Assembly: GCA_020200935.1 (NCBI GenBank)
Contig: JAIVHR010000206.1
Location: forward strand, 1 to 10,007
Direction of reading: 5' to 3'
Source of the DNA: Sphingomonadales bacterium
GTDB taxonomy: Bacteria; Pseudomonadota; Alphaproteobacteria; Sphingomonadales; Sphingomonadaceae
Length of the DNA: 10,007 bases
In this document: positions 1,268 through 5,263 of the stretch, in pieces
Layout of the letters: each line of letters starts with the position of its first letter
Numbering within the stretch: position 1 is the first letter of the stretch
Notes under the pieces: generated by a model
Told to the model about the DNA's origin: nothing
Database searches by the model: none
What the model saw: only the letters and a program-made list of their open reading frames with translations
Made by a program: the position numbers and the translations under genes

Positions 1268-2296
1268 TCACCCCTTTCGCCACTTCGTCCACAAATGCCG
1301 CGCCAGCATCGCCGGCGGCATTCTCAGCCAGTGCGAACGGATGTAGAAAGCCTGGCGCAGCCCCTTGCGCGTCTCGCGGCCCCAGCCGTCGCGGGCGAGC
1401 AGGCGGCGGATATAGAGCGCATCGCCGGCCCTGCCCCGCCCCGCCACATCGCCGTCGACCGGCGTGCCGTAGAGCGCCTCGGCCAGCCGCAGCGCGCGGG
1501 CGACGGGCTTGGTCAGCTGGTGGCGCTCGGCGCGCGCGGCAAGATCGTCCCAGAAGCCCTCTCGCTCGCCGAAATCGCGCAACAGCCGGTCAATATCCCA
1601 GAGGTTGCGCAGCCCGCCCGCAAGATCGCCGTCGGCGAGCATATGGCATGCGGCGTGGCAGATCATGTCGGGCGGCGACAGGACGCGCAGGCCCCTTGGT
1701 TCGGAAGGGTCGAGCGCCTCGCTGTCGGCGATCAGCGCGTCGGCATCGGGCGTGGGGCGCGCGGTCGGCGGCAGGATCGTGTGGTGGACGTCGATCATCC
1801 GATCGCGTTCCTTGTGGATCAGCGGCGGCAGCTCATGCATCCAGCGCCGGTAATAGGCGTCGTCATAATCGTCTTCCTTGACCCATTCCCAACCGCCGCG
1901 ACCGATCAGCGCCCGCTCGACCGCATCGAGCGAAGCGCGCGGGACGAGAATGTCGAGGTCGCCTATCGAGCGGCCGATACCGGCCGACAGACCCGCCGCG
2001 ACATAGGCCGTGCCCTTCAGGAGGATCACCCGCGCATCGATATCGGCGAGCGCGCGCCGCGCCATCTCAGCCTCCCACAGCGCGGTGCGCCGCGCATGAT
2101 CGGCGGAGGCGCGCGCGGCGGCGAGCAATTCGGCGACCTTGTCGGACTGCGCCAGGCCATCGAGCCGGTGCGCGAGGCTGCCGAGCAGCTGCTCGGCCCG
2201 CGCCATCGCGATCAGCGGCGTCCAATCGGCCGGGCCGAAGGAGGCCGTGCTCGGCGGATCGGCGAGCGCGCGGGTCAGGAGGCGGGCATCCGTCAT
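1268..2296 (-). CDS. Nucleotidyltransferase-fold protein of the HprK/PqqD-like cassette
   Basis: This 342-residue protein looks like the uncharacterised nucleotidyltransferase family (PF14907 type). An N-terminal helical part is followed by LLKG at 92-95 and GRSIGDLDILV at 108-118, which matches the polymerase-beta-type pattern of Gly-Arg/Ser followed by two metal-binding aspartates (D113, D115). DVHHTIL comes further on, then a helical, Arg-rich C-terminal half. There is no signal peptide or membrane segment, so it is probably cytoplasmic. Related enzymes occur with HPr-kinase-like proteins, including in some lasso-peptide clusters, but the nucleotide donor and target here are unknown. The start is supported by GGAG seven bases upstream; that sequence lies inside the hairpin of the repeat at 2302-2456. 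The gene is the last of the three cassette members and is followed by glmU on the same strand. The family call is fairly sure; the function is open. Confidence 0.82.
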   Translation of the reverse strand: MTDARLLTRALADPPSTASFGPADWTPLIAMARAEQLLGSLAHRLDGLAQSDKVAELLAAARASADHARRTALWEAEMARRALADIDARVILLKGTAYVAAGLSAGIGRSIGDLDILVPRASLDAVERALIGRGGWEWVKEDDYDDAYYRRWMHELPPLIHKERDRMIDVHHTILPPTARPTPDADALIADSEALDPSEPRGLRVLSPPDMICHAACHMLADGDLAGGLRNLWDIDRLLRDFGEREGFWDDLAARAERHQLTKPVARALRLAEALYGTPVDGDVAGRGRAGDALYIRRLLARDGWGRETRKGLRQAFYIRSHWLRMPPAMLARHLWTKWRKG

Positions 2297-2301
2297 GAAG
2301 A

Positions 2302-2456
2302 CTCTCCCCGGACCGGGGAGGGAGACCGAACGAAATGCGGTGGAGGGGTCTTGCGACCAAGGGGCGACGATGCGCCGGGCCGATGGCGGGAGCTCGCCAC
2401 GATCGAGCCCCCTCCGTCTCGCCTTCGGCGAGCCACCTCCCCGTGCCGGGGAGGAT
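2302..2456. repeat. Compound palindromic repeat between HprK-like and nucleotidyltransferase genes
   Basis: The 172-base gap is almost filled by a structured element. Its ends are near-identical palindromes: CTCCCCGGACCGGGGAG at 2304-2320 and CCTCCCCGTGCCGGGGAGG at 2436-2454. Inside are a third hairpin, CTCGCC-TTC-GGCGAG (2418-2432), and a longer-range pair, GGAGGGG (2342-2348) with CCCCTCC (2409-2415). The whole could fold as a multi-branched stem in either strand's RNA. The pattern of terminal CTCCCC/GGGGAG palindromes around a charged-looking translation is typical of intergenic repeats I recall from Sphingomonas, Brevundimonas and relatives. Short open frames across it, such as an Arg/Pro-rich 64-residue one on the minus strand (2487 to 2293), are translations of the repeat and not genes. 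The right-hand palindrome lies 15 bases past the HprK-like stop codon. Confidence 0.72.
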
Positions 2457-2468
2457 TTTCATGCTCCC

Positions 2469-3323
2469 TCACGCCAAATCCTCGCACAACCGCTCCACCG
2501 CCTCCACCGCGCTTTCGGTGTCGGGATAATCGACCGCGCGGACCGGCACGGTGCGGATCAGCCGCGCCAGCGCCTCGAACCCCCGCTCTTCGAGAGCGAC
2601 ATAGTTGGTCGAGGCCTGTGTCAGCCGAACGAAAGCCTCGCCCTGCCCGACCTCGCGGATCTCGGCGGCATGGCCGAAACGCGGAAAGAGCAGCAGGGCA
2701 GGCATCGCCGTCTCCTCCATCCGCGCGATCGCATCGTCATTCGGCCGCAGATGCCGGATCGTCCCCTTCGGGGTATCGGCAAGCAGCGGGCCGAGCCGGC
2801 CGGGATCGACGTCGTCGAACAGATCGACCGCCGCGTTCTTGAGGCTGACTGCGCGGGGGAACGGATGCAGCGCGCCGCTGTCGCAATCGACCAGCGCGAA
2901 TTCGTCGCCGAGCAGCCGCCAGCCGCACTCGCCGAGCAGGGCGGCAAGCGTCGACTTGCCGGCGCCCGACAGCCCGGTCATCAGCAGCGCGCGCCCGCCC
3001 TTCTCGACCCCCGAGGCATGGAGCAGCAGATAGCGCCGCTGGCCCAGCGCCATCTGCAGATTCATCCCCATTTCCGCCGCCAGCAGCCCATGGGCGAGCG
3101 AGAGCGGCGCGGCGTCGGGCAGCATGTAATCGCCGCCGATATGGACCTTGGGACGCAGCCAGCGCCGCCAGGGCCGCGGCGCTTCGAGGCGCACCGTGAA
3201 ATCGGCGATCGCGGGTTCGGGATAGCCCGCATAGAGGCGGTCGAGCGCGGCGAGCGGCGCGGCCCAGTCCGACCCGATGCGGAAGCCGACCGGGCCGACC
3301 TGGATCCGGCGCTCATGCCTCAT
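2469..3323 (-). CDS. HPr kinase-related ATPase/kinase (HprK-related kinase A type)
   Basis: This 284-residue cytoplasmic protein has a P-loop, GLSGAGKST at 117-125, directly after YLLLHASGVEKGGRALLMT. It is followed by WRLLGDEFALVD at 135-146. Together these copy the HPr kinase/phosphorylase core: a histidine before the P-loop (here H102), the Walker A motif, and an acidic pair (D140, E141) in place of the catalytic DD. The N-terminal 90 residues are not the usual HprK N-domain, and a canonical PTS-linked HprK is not implied. The substrate is unknown. Family members in lasso-peptide clusters phosphorylate a precursor peptide, so a peptide or small-protein target is a reasonable inference from the PqqD-like neighbour. 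The ATG overlaps the stop of the upstream PqqD-like gene in ATGA (3320-3323), which indicates translational coupling. A second ATG at 3316 is possible but less likely. Confidence 0.85.
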   Translation of the reverse strand: MRHERRIQVGPVGFRIGSDWAAPLAALDRLYAGYPEPAIADFTVRLEAPRPWRRWLRPKVHIGGDYMLPDAAPLSLAHGLLAAEMGMNLQMALGQRRYLLLHASGVEKGGRALLMTGLSGAGKSTLAALLGECGWRLLGDEFALVDCDSGALHPFPRAVSLKNAAVDLFDDVDPGRLGPLLADTPKGTIRHLRPNDDAIARMEETAMPALLLFPRFGHAAEIREVGQGEAFVRLTQASTNYVALEERGFEALARLIRTVPVRAVDYPDTESAVEAVERLCEDLA

Positions 3324-3601
3324 GCCCGGCGCACCAGGCCTGCCGCCTCGAGCTCGGCCAGCCGCGCATCGAGCGCCTCGCTTAGCCCTTCCTCATCCGC
3401 AATCTCGTGATCGCGCCGCAGCCGCGCGAGCAGCGTCTCGGCGTCGGCCTCCCCCTCGCCCAGCGCGTCCAGGATCTCGGGCGCCGGCGGGGCGACGATA
3501 TGCGTCTGGCCCGACAGGCGATGAAAGATCAGCGCCACGCCGTCGAGCGCGATCAGCCGCCGCGTATCGGGCGGATCGGCGATGTAGATCGCTGCGGTCA
3601 T
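3320..3601 (-). CDS. PqqD-like small protein (RRE/peptide-chaperone type) of the HprK-related cassette
   Basis: This 93-residue acidic protein has the PqqD layout. A short beta-rich N-terminal half (IALDGVALIFHRLSGQTHIV) leads into the turn APPAPEILDALGEG, then a helical C-terminal half rich in Glu and Ala (DAETLLARL, LSEALDARLAELEAAGLV). PqqD-type domains bind the leader of a peptide that is being modified and present it to an enzyme. Small members like this one travel with an HprK-related kinase and a nucleotidyltransferase; I recall the name 'HPr-rel-A system PqqD family peptide chaperone'. The four-base overlap with the kinase gene supports joint action. AGGAG lies 11 bases before the ATG, a long spacing, inside the hairpin at 3610-3633. 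The family is assigned by overall pattern and neighbours, because such short proteins carry few fixed residues. Confidence 0.78.
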   Translation of the reverse strand: MTAAIYIADPPDTRRLIALDGVALIFHRLSGQTHIVAPPAPEILDALGEGEADAETLLARLRRDHEIADEEGLSEALDARLAELEAAGLVRRA

Positions 3602-3609
3602 CGGATGGG

Positions 3610-3633
3610 GTGCTCCTGCGAAGGCAGAAGCAC
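3610..3633. repeat. Hairpin half-copy of the dispersed repeat, just upstream of the PqqD-like gene
   Basis: GTGCTCCTGCGAAGGCAGAAGCAC folds as an 11-position stem with one C-A mismatch, around a two-base loop or a slightly larger one. The first 21 bases match the left arm of the repeat at 1170-1196 at 18 positions. On the minus strand the arm carries AGGAG (3617-3613), the only plausible ribosome-binding site for the PqqD-like gene, so folding would hide it. The rest of the 3602-3705 gap holds only a short GCGGTT-C-AACCGC palindrome (3690-3702) after the exported-protein gene. Confidence 0.5.
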
Positions 3634-3705
3634 TCGAAGAATAGTCTGCCTGATTCCCGCCATTCCGGTACGATCCGCCATTTCGCGAGGCGGTTCAACC
3701 GCTCT

Positions 3706-4101
3706 TCAGCGCGGCATCTGGATCGAGGCGTAGCAGGTGAAGCCGCTCATGCCCGTTTGCAGGCGGCGGATATAGTTGGTGTAGGCCTGGCTCTGCTCGT
3801 AACTATAGCCCGGATAGCTGCGCCCGCCGCGGATCGCCGCCTTGACCTCTTCGCCGGTGAGGTTGCGGCCCGGCGGCGGGAAGGCGCCGGGGGTTCCGGG
3901 CGGCACAATCGAGCCGTCCGAAGCGATGAAGTTGCCGCTGTTGCCGGGATCGGGCACCGGGATCTGACAGGTCAGCACCGAACCGGCGGTCTGGGCGAGC
4001 GCGGGCCGCACGGTGACGACGGTCGATGCCGCCGCCGCGCCGATCATCAGCACCCGGCGGCGTCCGGGCATGACATCCTCGCGGTCGATCGGTTCGTCCA
4101 T
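3706..4101 (-). CDS. Small exported protein of unknown function with signal peptide
   Basis: I do not recognise this 131-residue protein. It has a clear export signal: MPGRRRVLM (11-19), a hydrophobic run GAAAASTVVTV, and a likely cleavage site after ALA (A36|Q37). The arginine cluster followed by V-L fits a twin-arginine signal weakly, and a Sec signal is equally possible. The mature part is about 95 residues, with a Pro/Gly-rich stretch (about 48-79) and LTGEEVKAAI. Its C-terminal half is rich in Tyr and Gly, and it has just two cysteines, C45 and C123, which could form a disulfide in the periplasm. ATG at 4071 (Met11) has GAGG five bases upstream and may be the true start. Upstream of 4101 there is only AGGG. 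The gene is 104 bases ahead of the PqqD-like gene on the same strand and may belong to that cassette. Confidence 0.72.
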   Translation of the reverse strand: MDEPIDREDVMPGRRRVLMIGAAAASTVVTVRPALAQTAGSVLTCQIPVPDPGNSGNFIASDGSIVPPGTPGAFPPPGRNLTGEEVKAAIRGGRSYPGYSYEQSQAYTNYIRRLQTGMSGFTCYASIQMPR

Positions 4102-4205: not shown

Positions 4206-5263
4206 ATGGCCGGAATAACGCCTCCGCGAGCGCTTGTCGCCCTGTTAACCACGATTGGGCTGGGATTGCTGGTCGGCGCGCTCGGCGCGCCGCCGGCGGC
4301 CGCGATCGCCGCCGGCGCGGGCGCCTTGCTCTTCGCGCTGGTGATGGCCTCGACCGCCCCCACCGCCGAGCCCGAAATGGTGTACGCGCCCGAACCCGAC
4401 GACCGGTCCGGCGAGCCGACGCTCGAGGAACTGATGGATGCGATCGACGAGCCCGCCTTGCTTGTCTCGGGCCGCCGCGTTTCCCGCGCAAACCCGGCGG
4501 CGCTGGCGCTGCTCGGCGACCATATCGTCGGCCAGGATGTCAGGCTCGCGATCCGTCACCCGGCCGCTGCCGAGCGGCTGATCGGCAAAGGACCCGACGA
4601 GGACGGCGAATCGCGCACCGCGCTCGAACTGGTCGGCATCGGCGAACGCAACCGTCCGTGGGAGCTCGTCATCCACGAACTTTCGGGCAACGGCCGCTTC
4701 GTCCGCCTCGCCGATCGCAGCCGCACCCAGGCGGCGGAAAAGATGCGCGTCGATTTCGTCGCCAATGCGAGCCACGAATTGCGCACGCCGCTGGCCTCGC
4801 TGCTCGGCTATATCGAGACGCTGCAGGACAGCAGCAGGGGTCCGCCCATACGATTCCCGGCGATCGGGTACAGCTCGTCCAGCTGGTCAGCAATCTGGTC
4901 GGCAATGCGCTCAAATACAGCGATAGCGAGGCCGCGGTGACCGTGCGGCATGGCGTGGCGAAGCCCGACGGCTATGTGATCCGCGTGATCGATCGCGGCG
5001 AGGGAATCGCCACCGAGCACCTGCCCCGGCTGACCGAGCGATTCTATCGCGTCGATGCGAGCCGCAGCCGGTCGATGGGCGGCACCGGGCTTGGCCTCGC
5101 CATCGTCAAGCATATCGTCGAGCGCCATCGCGGCCGGCTCAAAATCGAAAGCGAGCCCGGCGAAGGCACCGAAGTCATTGTCGAATTGCCGGGCGGATCG
5201 CCGCGAATGTCATCAAACCGTAACGCACCATCCGCATTGACGGGCAACGAGACTGCAGCATAG
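4206..5263 (+). pseudogene. phoR: PhoR phosphate-sensing histidine kinase, disrupted by an internal deletion and frame change
   Basis: PhoR is the membrane kinase that phosphorylates PhoB when phosphate is scarce. From ATG 4206 the frame gives two hydrophobic segments (about 9-28 and 31-50), a PAS-like region (about 70-165) and the histidine box ANASHELRTPLASLLGYIETLQD with H190. After the D codon at 4827-4829 the homology moves to another frame. From 4856 it reads PGDRVQLVQLVSNLVGNALKY (N box), then DRGEGI, ERFYRV and GGTGLGLAIVKHIVERH, ending at 5263. E. coli PhoR has about 80 residues between these points and here there are about nine codons, so helix 2 of the dimerisation domain and the start of the ATPase domain are lost. 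The original frame stops at 4940. No other decay is visible, so the lesion is recent or is a sequence/assembly error. A GTG at 4173 is an alternative start. pstC follows after 158 bases. Confidence 0.88.
5207..5224 (+). promoter_or_regulatory. Candidate Pho box for the pst operon, inside the 3' end of phoR
   Basis: ATGTCAT-CAAA-CCGTAAC matches the PhoB-binding layout of two seven-base direct repeats (CTGTCAT) separated by four bases. The first repeat fits at 6 of 7 positions and the second at 4 of 7. It ends 197 bases before the pstC start and overlaps the last codons of phoR. An internal promoter here would let pstC to phoB be induced independently of phoR transcription, which is the expected regulation of pst genes. 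No convincing -10 hexamer is visible at the expected distance downstream. Confidence 0.4.

Follow-up and report, generated by a model that had tools for sequence, protein, structure and literature searches.

An HprK-related kinase, a PqqD-like protein and a nucleotidyltransferase in Sphingomonadales are co-inherited with an exported protein, their candidate substrate

A four-gene cassette in a Sphingomonadales genome

The window analyzed here is a stretch of 10,007 nucleotides (nt; positions 1 to 10,007 of contig JAIVHR010000206.1, assembly GCA_020200935.1), one contig of a 66% complete metagenome-assembled genome (MAG) of a Sphingomonadales bacterium (family Sphingomonadaceae). Between positions 1268 and 4101 it carries four genes on the minus strand, which in order of transcription encode a small exported protein of 131 amino acids (SP; 3706..4101), a PqqD-like protein of 93 amino acids (PqqD_rel_X, TIGR04353; 3320..3601), a kinase of 284 amino acids (HprK_rel_A, TIGR04352; 2469..3323), and a nucleotidyltransferase of 342 amino acids (NTP_transf_5, PF14907; 1268..2296). 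SP belongs to no named family, and we propose it as the substrate. An earlier note, made from the sequence alone, had described this cassette, the ATGA at 3320-3323 by which the PqqD-like gene overlaps the kinase gene, and the nucleotidyltransferase gene on the same strand; every coordinate was right, both details of the arrangement are seen, and profile scans confirmed the families. The cassette is real: in relatives, all four genes come and go together, as one unit, at the site between (gph-)glmU and phoR, which makes their proximity more than chance adjacency.

The window kinase scores 231.7 bits against HprK_rel_A (cut-off, 200) but 15.1 bits against the canonical HPr(Ser) kinase model TIGR00679 (cut-off, 240). 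Its His102, P-loop Lys123, and Asp140-Glu141 sit at the catalytic positions of HprK and the lasso-peptide kinases, and the His, GKST P-loop, and Asp-Glu are among the invariant residues of 23 diverse HprK_rel_A kinases. Lasso kinases need His-Lys-Asp-Asp (PMC9266682), whereas the window kinase has His-Lys-Asp-Glu. When solved structures were searched with the kinase profile, HprK entries ranked first (E = 0.0013), with only the His/P-loop/Asp stretch aligned. This distant match to HprK favors a different explanation, in which the enzyme is an HPr kinase regulating the nitrogen phosphotransferase system and its neighbors are incidental, an outcome that the earlier note had set against its own proposal. 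Six genomes of the window's genus (G070, G135, G184, G224, G254, and G280; loci L232 to L234) are also in its favor, having HPr but no canonical-type small HprK that we could find. Five other genera point the other way: a small canonical-type HprK, in every case under the family cut-off, occurs in 12/12 of their tested genomes, six with and six without HprK_rel_A. This small HprK adjoins HPr in all four genomes checked, and HprK_rel_A travels instead with SP, the PqqD-like protein, and the nucleotidyltransferase. We therefore regard the HPr kinase explanation as highly improbable, with the window's own genus as the part of the case that still speaks for it.

The PqqD-like protein scores 61.7 bits against PqqD_rel_X (cut-off, 35) and 17.5 bits against Pfam PqqD, below the cut-off of 23.4, which counts against membership in the PqqD fold. 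The sole solved-structure match of its family under an E value of 0.01 is TfuB1 (E = 8.6e-4), which we take to be a lasso-peptide recognition protein, i.e., a recognition element (RRE) for ribosomally synthesized and posttranslationally modified peptides (RiPPs). TIGR04353 membership and kinship with TfuB1 mark the PqqD-like protein, at the sequence level, as a RiPP recognition element, and its AlphaFold2 model (predicted local distance difference test score [pLDDT], 91.5) has four strands followed in turn by a helix, one short strand, and a final pair of helices. The nucleotidyltransferase scores 172 bits against NTP_transf_5 (cut-off, 31.2) and contains KG..GR..D113-x-D115 and Asp169; the KG..GR..D-x-D motif and the third Asp are kept in 20/20 aligned transferases. 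The kinase and the nucleotidyltransferase look intact at their catalytic residues.

Co-inheritance of SP and the kinase in Sphingomonadaceae

The earlier note had called for a neighborhood survey in search of a stable small-protein partner, and SP proved to be one. We drew 298 genomes evenly from the family (requested completeness, ≥90%; our own MAG added) and scored the kinase as present when over the TIGR04352 cut-off and SP as present when matched by the SP profile. Kinase and SP occurred together in 102 genomes, the kinase alone in 2, SP alone in none, and neither in 194, so that SP tracks the kinase (102/104 versus 0/194 genomes). Both kinase-only genomes (G094 and G199) in fact hold a divergent SP adjoining the kinase (L142 and L131, respectively). 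SP matches were weak or partial in five genera (g6, g37, g49, g53, and g80), and the SP profile might therefore miss divergent SPs in kinase-negative genomes. Because relatedness inflates p-values, agreement within genera is the better evidence: in the seven genera of mixed state (g19, g32, g40, g47, g50, g65, and g85), kinase and SP agreed in every genome drawn.

We sought glmU and phoR in 9 of the 10 kinase-negative genomes of these seven genera. An empty site was found in six of the nine, with phoR, gph (named by reading), and glmU side by side, glmU and phoR about 1 kb apart, and no match there to the SP, signal, kinase, PqqD-like, or transferase profiles. In the other three, glmU and phoR were on separate contigs or far apart, or the genome was fragmented.

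Linkage is not needed for SP to be kept. In 5/7 genomes of genus g39, SP lies beside phoR, and the three enzymes are encoded elsewhere with gph-glmU-glmS; in genome G036, SP is on a different contig from the kinase. SP is thus retained without linkage to the kinase in six genomes. In the g39 loci (L132 to L141), SP is divergent from phoR and the enzyme genes stand behind a MarR-like gene, so named by reading. In one further genome (G192, locus L240) the SP gene is split in two frames, with the kinase, PqqD-like, and transferase genes present.

The cassette beyond the family

In a phylum-wide sample, 51/397 genomes had the kinase over cut-off, 13 of them within the family, 2 in the rest of the order, and 36 outside the class; no kinase was detected in the sampled remainder of the class beyond the order. 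A scan of one genome per species gave at least 585 kinase relatives, with members in Sphingomonadales, Magnetococcales, Methylococcaceae, Chromatiaceae, Oxalobacteraceae, and other taxa; the best 80, all from named organisms, were taken further. The earlier note had described the PqqD-like/kinase/nucleotidyltransferase triad as known to co-occur, and it does: among 136 kinase loci, which include near duplicates (L098/L184 and L149/L150) and are not independent, a PqqD-like gene lies upstream on the same strand in 125 and a nucleotidyltransferase gene lies on the same strand in 124. The gene maps of relatives were made with an earlier kinase profile that contained some antisense translations, and the other counts come from rebuilt profiles. 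Neighbor clusters were formed by single linkage and may include antisense shadow open reading frames (ORFs), which are present in the gph cluster.

In other Proteobacteria, the protein in the SP slot is usually unlike SP but carries the same kind of twin-arginine signal (consensus RRRLLKGGAAAAPVVLTLRSGAALA); its length is mostly 130 to 275 amino acids. An SP was assigned within 119/136 kinase loci (96 by the signal profile, 19 by hand, and 4 by other profiles), and one more was recognized by eye (L208). Together with the five loci of unlinked SPs, this gave 124 SPs, of which the signal profile identified 101, manual selection 19, and a second profile and the SP profile two each. At 15 bits or more, the first signal profile picked out the slot of 88 loci, 5/5 unlinked-SP loci, and only three other places, all of them SP-like by eye. 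The mature parts of the SPs fall into 25 BLAST groups, 19 of which are single. In L148, L156, L186, L209, L213, and L226, SP is downstream, divergent, or one gene away; in the last four of these it lies downstream of the cassette rather than upstream, with two consecutive SP-like genes in L213.

The surroundings of the cassette differ among clades. Of the 39 Sphingomonadales loci fetched, 34 of which contain the kinase, 26 have glmU and 23 have glmS close to the cassette. Among 21 loci from outside the class, exopolysaccharide genes of the XrtA/PEP-CTERM type appear repeatedly (an amidotransferase in 7 loci, a glycosyltransferase in 6, and PrsT in 5); one representative of each was over cut-off (TIGR03108, TIGR03088, and TIGR02917), as were TIGR03087, TIGR03019, and TIGR03694, and some of these loci are placed among Magnetococcales in the kinase tree. 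One orphan HprK_rel_A kinase (L101) stands inside an XrtA exopolysaccharide locus where the PqqD-like, transferase, and SP profiles find no match nearby. A phosphate-regulon link as a general explanation was dropped because neighbors differ in other clades.

Both settings hint at sugar-nucleotide chemistry, and they favor an explanation in which SP would be a partner without being the substrate. The enzymes would then act on a small molecule, a sugar, or a polysaccharide, and SP would be the periplasmic carrier, anchor, or user of the product. Such a role would also suit the g39 genomes, since the sugar-nucleotide genes stay beside the enzymes where SP has moved. On the other hand, a PqqD-type RRE, together with the precedents of lasso peptides and linear polyphosphorylated peptides (LPPs), favors a peptide substrate, and the serine motif and kinase tree described below are best explained by direct contact between kinase and SP. 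We consider a nonsubstrate role of SP unlikely, but with a real share of the probability.

A conserved serine near one end of SP

SP is a real gene, as judged from its sequence conservation. No NCBIfam family matches it, and in Pfam it has only a weak match to the Tat (twin-arginine translocation) signal model PF10399 (13.9 bits; cut-off, 24). Among proteins sharing words with SP, 2720/2785 match it at an E value of ≤0.01, including proteins of Parasphingopyxis, a genus of Sphingomonadales. An alignment of 68 members, gathered regardless of signal, has 31 invariant columns. The twin-arginine-type signal, assigned by pattern, spans residues 14 to 36 (3994..4062, minus strand), with R15, P33, A34, and A36 invariant and R14 nearly so, and is likely cleaved at ALA|Q. 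The window SP and the alignment follow the Tat pattern of twin arginine, hydrophobic stretch, and AxA, and the Tat profiles stay below cut-off (PF10399, as above; TIGR01409, 15.8 versus 16.7 bits in L191). RR or RK is present in 123/124 SPs, partly by construction, since the signal was used in choosing them.

Conservation extends to the other end of the protein, where the block S-G-F-T-C-x-A-S-x-Q is kept across the 68 members. Within the TCYAS motif of the window SP, Cys123 (3733..3735, minus strand) and Ser126 (3724..3726, minus strand), the sixth residue from the end, are invariant in the alignment and in four distant SPs. Apart from eight signal residues, the only positions invariant across these distant SPs are Met1, Pro4, Ser41, Cys123, and Ser126. 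Cys45 (3967..3969, minus strand) is invariant in the 68-member alignment and possibly pairs with Cys123 in a disulfide, and Ser126 is our proposed phosphoacceptor.

Across all SPs, with one omitted because its mature part is shorter than 40 residues, [ST]-C-(hydrophobic)-x-S-(hydrophobic) occurs in the last 30 residues of 65/123 mature proteins, versus 0.06 expected by shuffling. The same C-terminal [ST]C-x-x-S motif is found in 5/4383 other ORFs of the loci, two of which are pieces of SP. The motif serine is the 2nd to 17th residue from the end (median, 6th). In a further set of SPs (from Methylococcaceae, Accumulibacter, and other taxa), a serine lies near the terminus but the Cys is missing. 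A third class, found in Massilia, Thiobacillus, Nitrotoga, and elsewhere, carries C-x-x-S-G or similar near the mature N terminus, in many cases with an SPGYW-like stretch after it.

The SP classes agree with the kinase tree. Over 119 loci, with classes A, B, and C defined by regular expressions and 8 loci left unassigned, the classes need 11 changes versus 50.4 when shuffled, and none of 200 shuffles was as low. At the central fork of the tree (support, 96/88), 36/36 class B rows lie opposite 61/61 class A rows, and class C rows fall 13 to 1 on the A side, although at least one class C row looks like B by eye (L151) and another is a split SP (L147).

Genomic surroundings in the window

Left of the cassette, the window ends in a partial glmU on the minus strand; right of SP, on the plus strand, come phoR, pstC, pstA, pstB, phoU, and the start of phoB. 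Family scans of the window genes found neither a lasso cyclase nor a transglutaminase-like leader peptidase, in agreement with the earlier note, and neither an SpI-type peptidase nor an MsbA-like exporter; elsewhere, only sampled neighbors were scanned for the latter two. Neither an Rfam search at the gathering threshold nor a tRNA scan gave any match in the window. The phoR gene (4206-5263) looks broken: its first part matches only positions 8 to 142 of the 333-position PhoR model, and the remainder continues in a different frame; in mapped relatives, phoR is a single long gene. This looks like a deletion with frameshift or an assembly error. The 172-nt spacer between the kinase and nucleotidyltransferase genes (2297..2468) is an interspersed repeat with five more long copies, 79 to 89% identical, in the same MAG; a search for inverted repeats in it found none. 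The two genes abut or overlap in most mapped relatives, and the spacer is probably a later insertion.

All three enzyme types are known as lasso tailoring genes (PMC9266682), and the cassette might thus be a remnant of, or an in-trans helper for, a lasso-peptide cluster. The leader-peptidase domain PF13471, sought in 60 of the 104 kinase-positive genomes, occurs somewhere in 27 of them but nowhere in the other 33, and the SPs are without the lasso leader motif, which makes this explanation very unlikely. An asparagine-synthetase-like neighbor of some cassettes was rejected as a lasso cyclase: the one representative scanned is an XrtA amidotransferase (TIGR03108, 870.6 bits; cut-off, 816.9) and scores 250.6 bits against NF033535 (cut-off, 525). 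The PF13471 result supports the stand-alone system suggested by the earlier note, with peptide or protein modification as its putative function.

The transferase is weakly similar to AbiEii/Rv1045, which could suggest a defense or toxin-antitoxin-like pair of kinase and nucleotidyltransferase. However, the cassette occupies mostly one chromosomal site amid housekeeping genes in Sphingomonadales, an exported protein and an RRE are co-conserved with the pair, and general family scans, in which a defense-system library was not included, gave no toxin or antitoxin family over cut-off. Of the explanations considered, we find this one the least probable.

Proposed mechanism

We propose, with a probability of about 62%, that the four genes form a self-contained protein-modification cassette with the coencoded exported SP as its substrate, comprising an RRE-guided kinase, a transferase, and export by Tat. 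In the cytosol, the PqqD-like RRE would bind SP by its N-terminal signal/leader region and present it to the HprK-like kinase, which would phosphorylate, perhaps polyphosphorylate, the conserved near-C-terminal serine (here, Ser126 of C-x-x-S). The NTP_transf_5 enzyme would then put a nucleotide or sugar on the phosphate, and the modified SP would be exported by the general Tat pathway and lose its signal to a housekeeping signal peptidase. A housekeeping Tat system and signal peptidase would explain why the window has neither a peptidase nor an exporter of its own. Since Tat transports proteins that are already folded, and ATP is found in the cytosol, modification before export is the economical reading. 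The identity of SP as the substrate, the site, the order of events, the Tat route, and the nature of the second modification are our suppositions, and the chemistry is drawn from the lasso-tailoring kinases and LPPs.

Several observations weigh against this proposal. The lasso/LPP leader motif ([YW]xxPx[LVIAFY] or FETxxS) is present in 0/124 SPs. Sixteen of the 136 kinase loci have no complete linked SP; six of these, namely, five g39 loci and L129, come from genomes that encode SP at another place, three are at contig edges, including L217 with an SP-like tail, and seven are unexplained (L100, L101, L104, L157, L198, L200, and L201). Since SPs outside Sphingomonadales were partly picked by their signal, finding that signal in all of them carries no independent weight. 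The [ST]C-x-x-S motif was first spotted on part of the set used for counting (41/52 among the first loci and 24/71 among loci fetched afterwards, versus 0.05 expected for the latter). About half of the SPs are without the strict C-terminal motif, and one class instead has C-x-x-S-G or similar near the mature N terminus; the site therefore cannot be the same residue in all of them. The match between SP class and kinase tree would be expected of a kinase adapting to its substrate, but shared descent of the whole cassette gives it too, and so it indicates association, not catalysis. The structure model of SP is weak (mean pLDDT, 61.4; below 50 at residues 1 to 42, 118 to 122, and 129 to 131), although low values around the motif (118 to 122 and 129 to 131) are as expected of a flexible tail. 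Finally, the transferase step is the weakest, because LppN, its LPP counterpart, had no detectable effect in the LPP study (PMC13381572).

More tentatively, and by analogy, the SPs may be a widespread and so far unrecognized proteobacterial class of secreted proteins that undergo RRE-guided (poly)phosphorylation of serine in the cytosol, nucleotide or sugar capping, and export in folded form by Tat. This would be a RiPP-like pathway for entire Tat proteins, which possibly serve as anchors or primers of surface polysaccharides, as the glmU/glmS and XrtA neighborhoods might suggest. What is novel here is the substrate assignment, by which a partner protein, a motif, and co-inheritance are added to named HPr-rel-A families. 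The kinase and its PqqD-like mate carry NCBI names that give no substrate; with a secreted protein that is inherited along with them and bears a conserved serine, the system becomes directly testable.

Comparison with known systems

The window kinase and PqqD-like protein are members, over the curated cut-offs, of the NCBIfam "HPr-rel-A system" families (TIGR04352 and TIGR04353), whose names give no substrate. A literature search, mostly of papers available without subscription, found no mention of the HPr-rel-A system, an HprK-related kinase, TIGR04352, or PqqD with exosortase. With HPr kinase/phosphorylase the kinase shares the positions of the His, P-loop Lys, and Asp-Asp/Asp-Glu, but it has other neighbors and is far below the TIGR00679 cut-off.

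Closer parallels come from two published systems. The lasso kinases PadeK, ThcoK, and SyanK attach a phosphate or polyphosphate to the C-terminal Ser of their lasso precursors; in paeninodin and pseudomycoidin biosynthesis, PadeK and PsmK modify the C-terminal Ser and PsmN attaches a hexose to the phosphate (PMC9266682). The likeness would lie in an HprK-like kinase acting on a C-terminal precursor Ser and a nucleotidyltransferase homologue acting on the phosphate (PMC9266682). In contrast, the window has neither a lasso cyclase nor a B2 protease, and the candidate substrate is not a short lasso peptide but an exported protein some 130 to 270 amino acids long.

The LPPs of Bacillota, originally found in capsular polysaccharide loci, are made by the cluster lppA-K-B-S-D-N, described in 2026 (PMC13381572). 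The HprK-like LppK adds multiple phosphates to a single Ser in the linear precursor, the cluster contains a discrete RRE and an NTP transferase, and deletion of lppN changed nothing visible (PMC13381572). LPP clusters and the cassette have in common a discrete RRE, an HprK-like kinase, and an NTP transferase beside the precursor, with no macrolactam cyclase (PMC13381572). They differ in that LPP clusters have an SpI-type leader peptidase and an MsbA-like exporter, neither of which is in the window, and a YxxPxVLxHQxIxFETxxS leader that is in no SP (PMC13381572), whereas SPs have a twin-arginine-type signal and, in many cases, C-x-x-S near the C terminus. The terms Proteobacteria, Pseudomonadota, Tat, twin-arginine, PqqD, and Sphing- do not occur in the main text of the LPP study (PMC13381572).

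The cassette therefore resembles both lasso tailoring and LPP biosynthesis, yet lacks some defining features of each. If our proposal is correct, RRE/HprK-kinase/transferase chemistry would reach from short peptides to Tat-exported proteins and would be tied to surface-polysaccharide loci.

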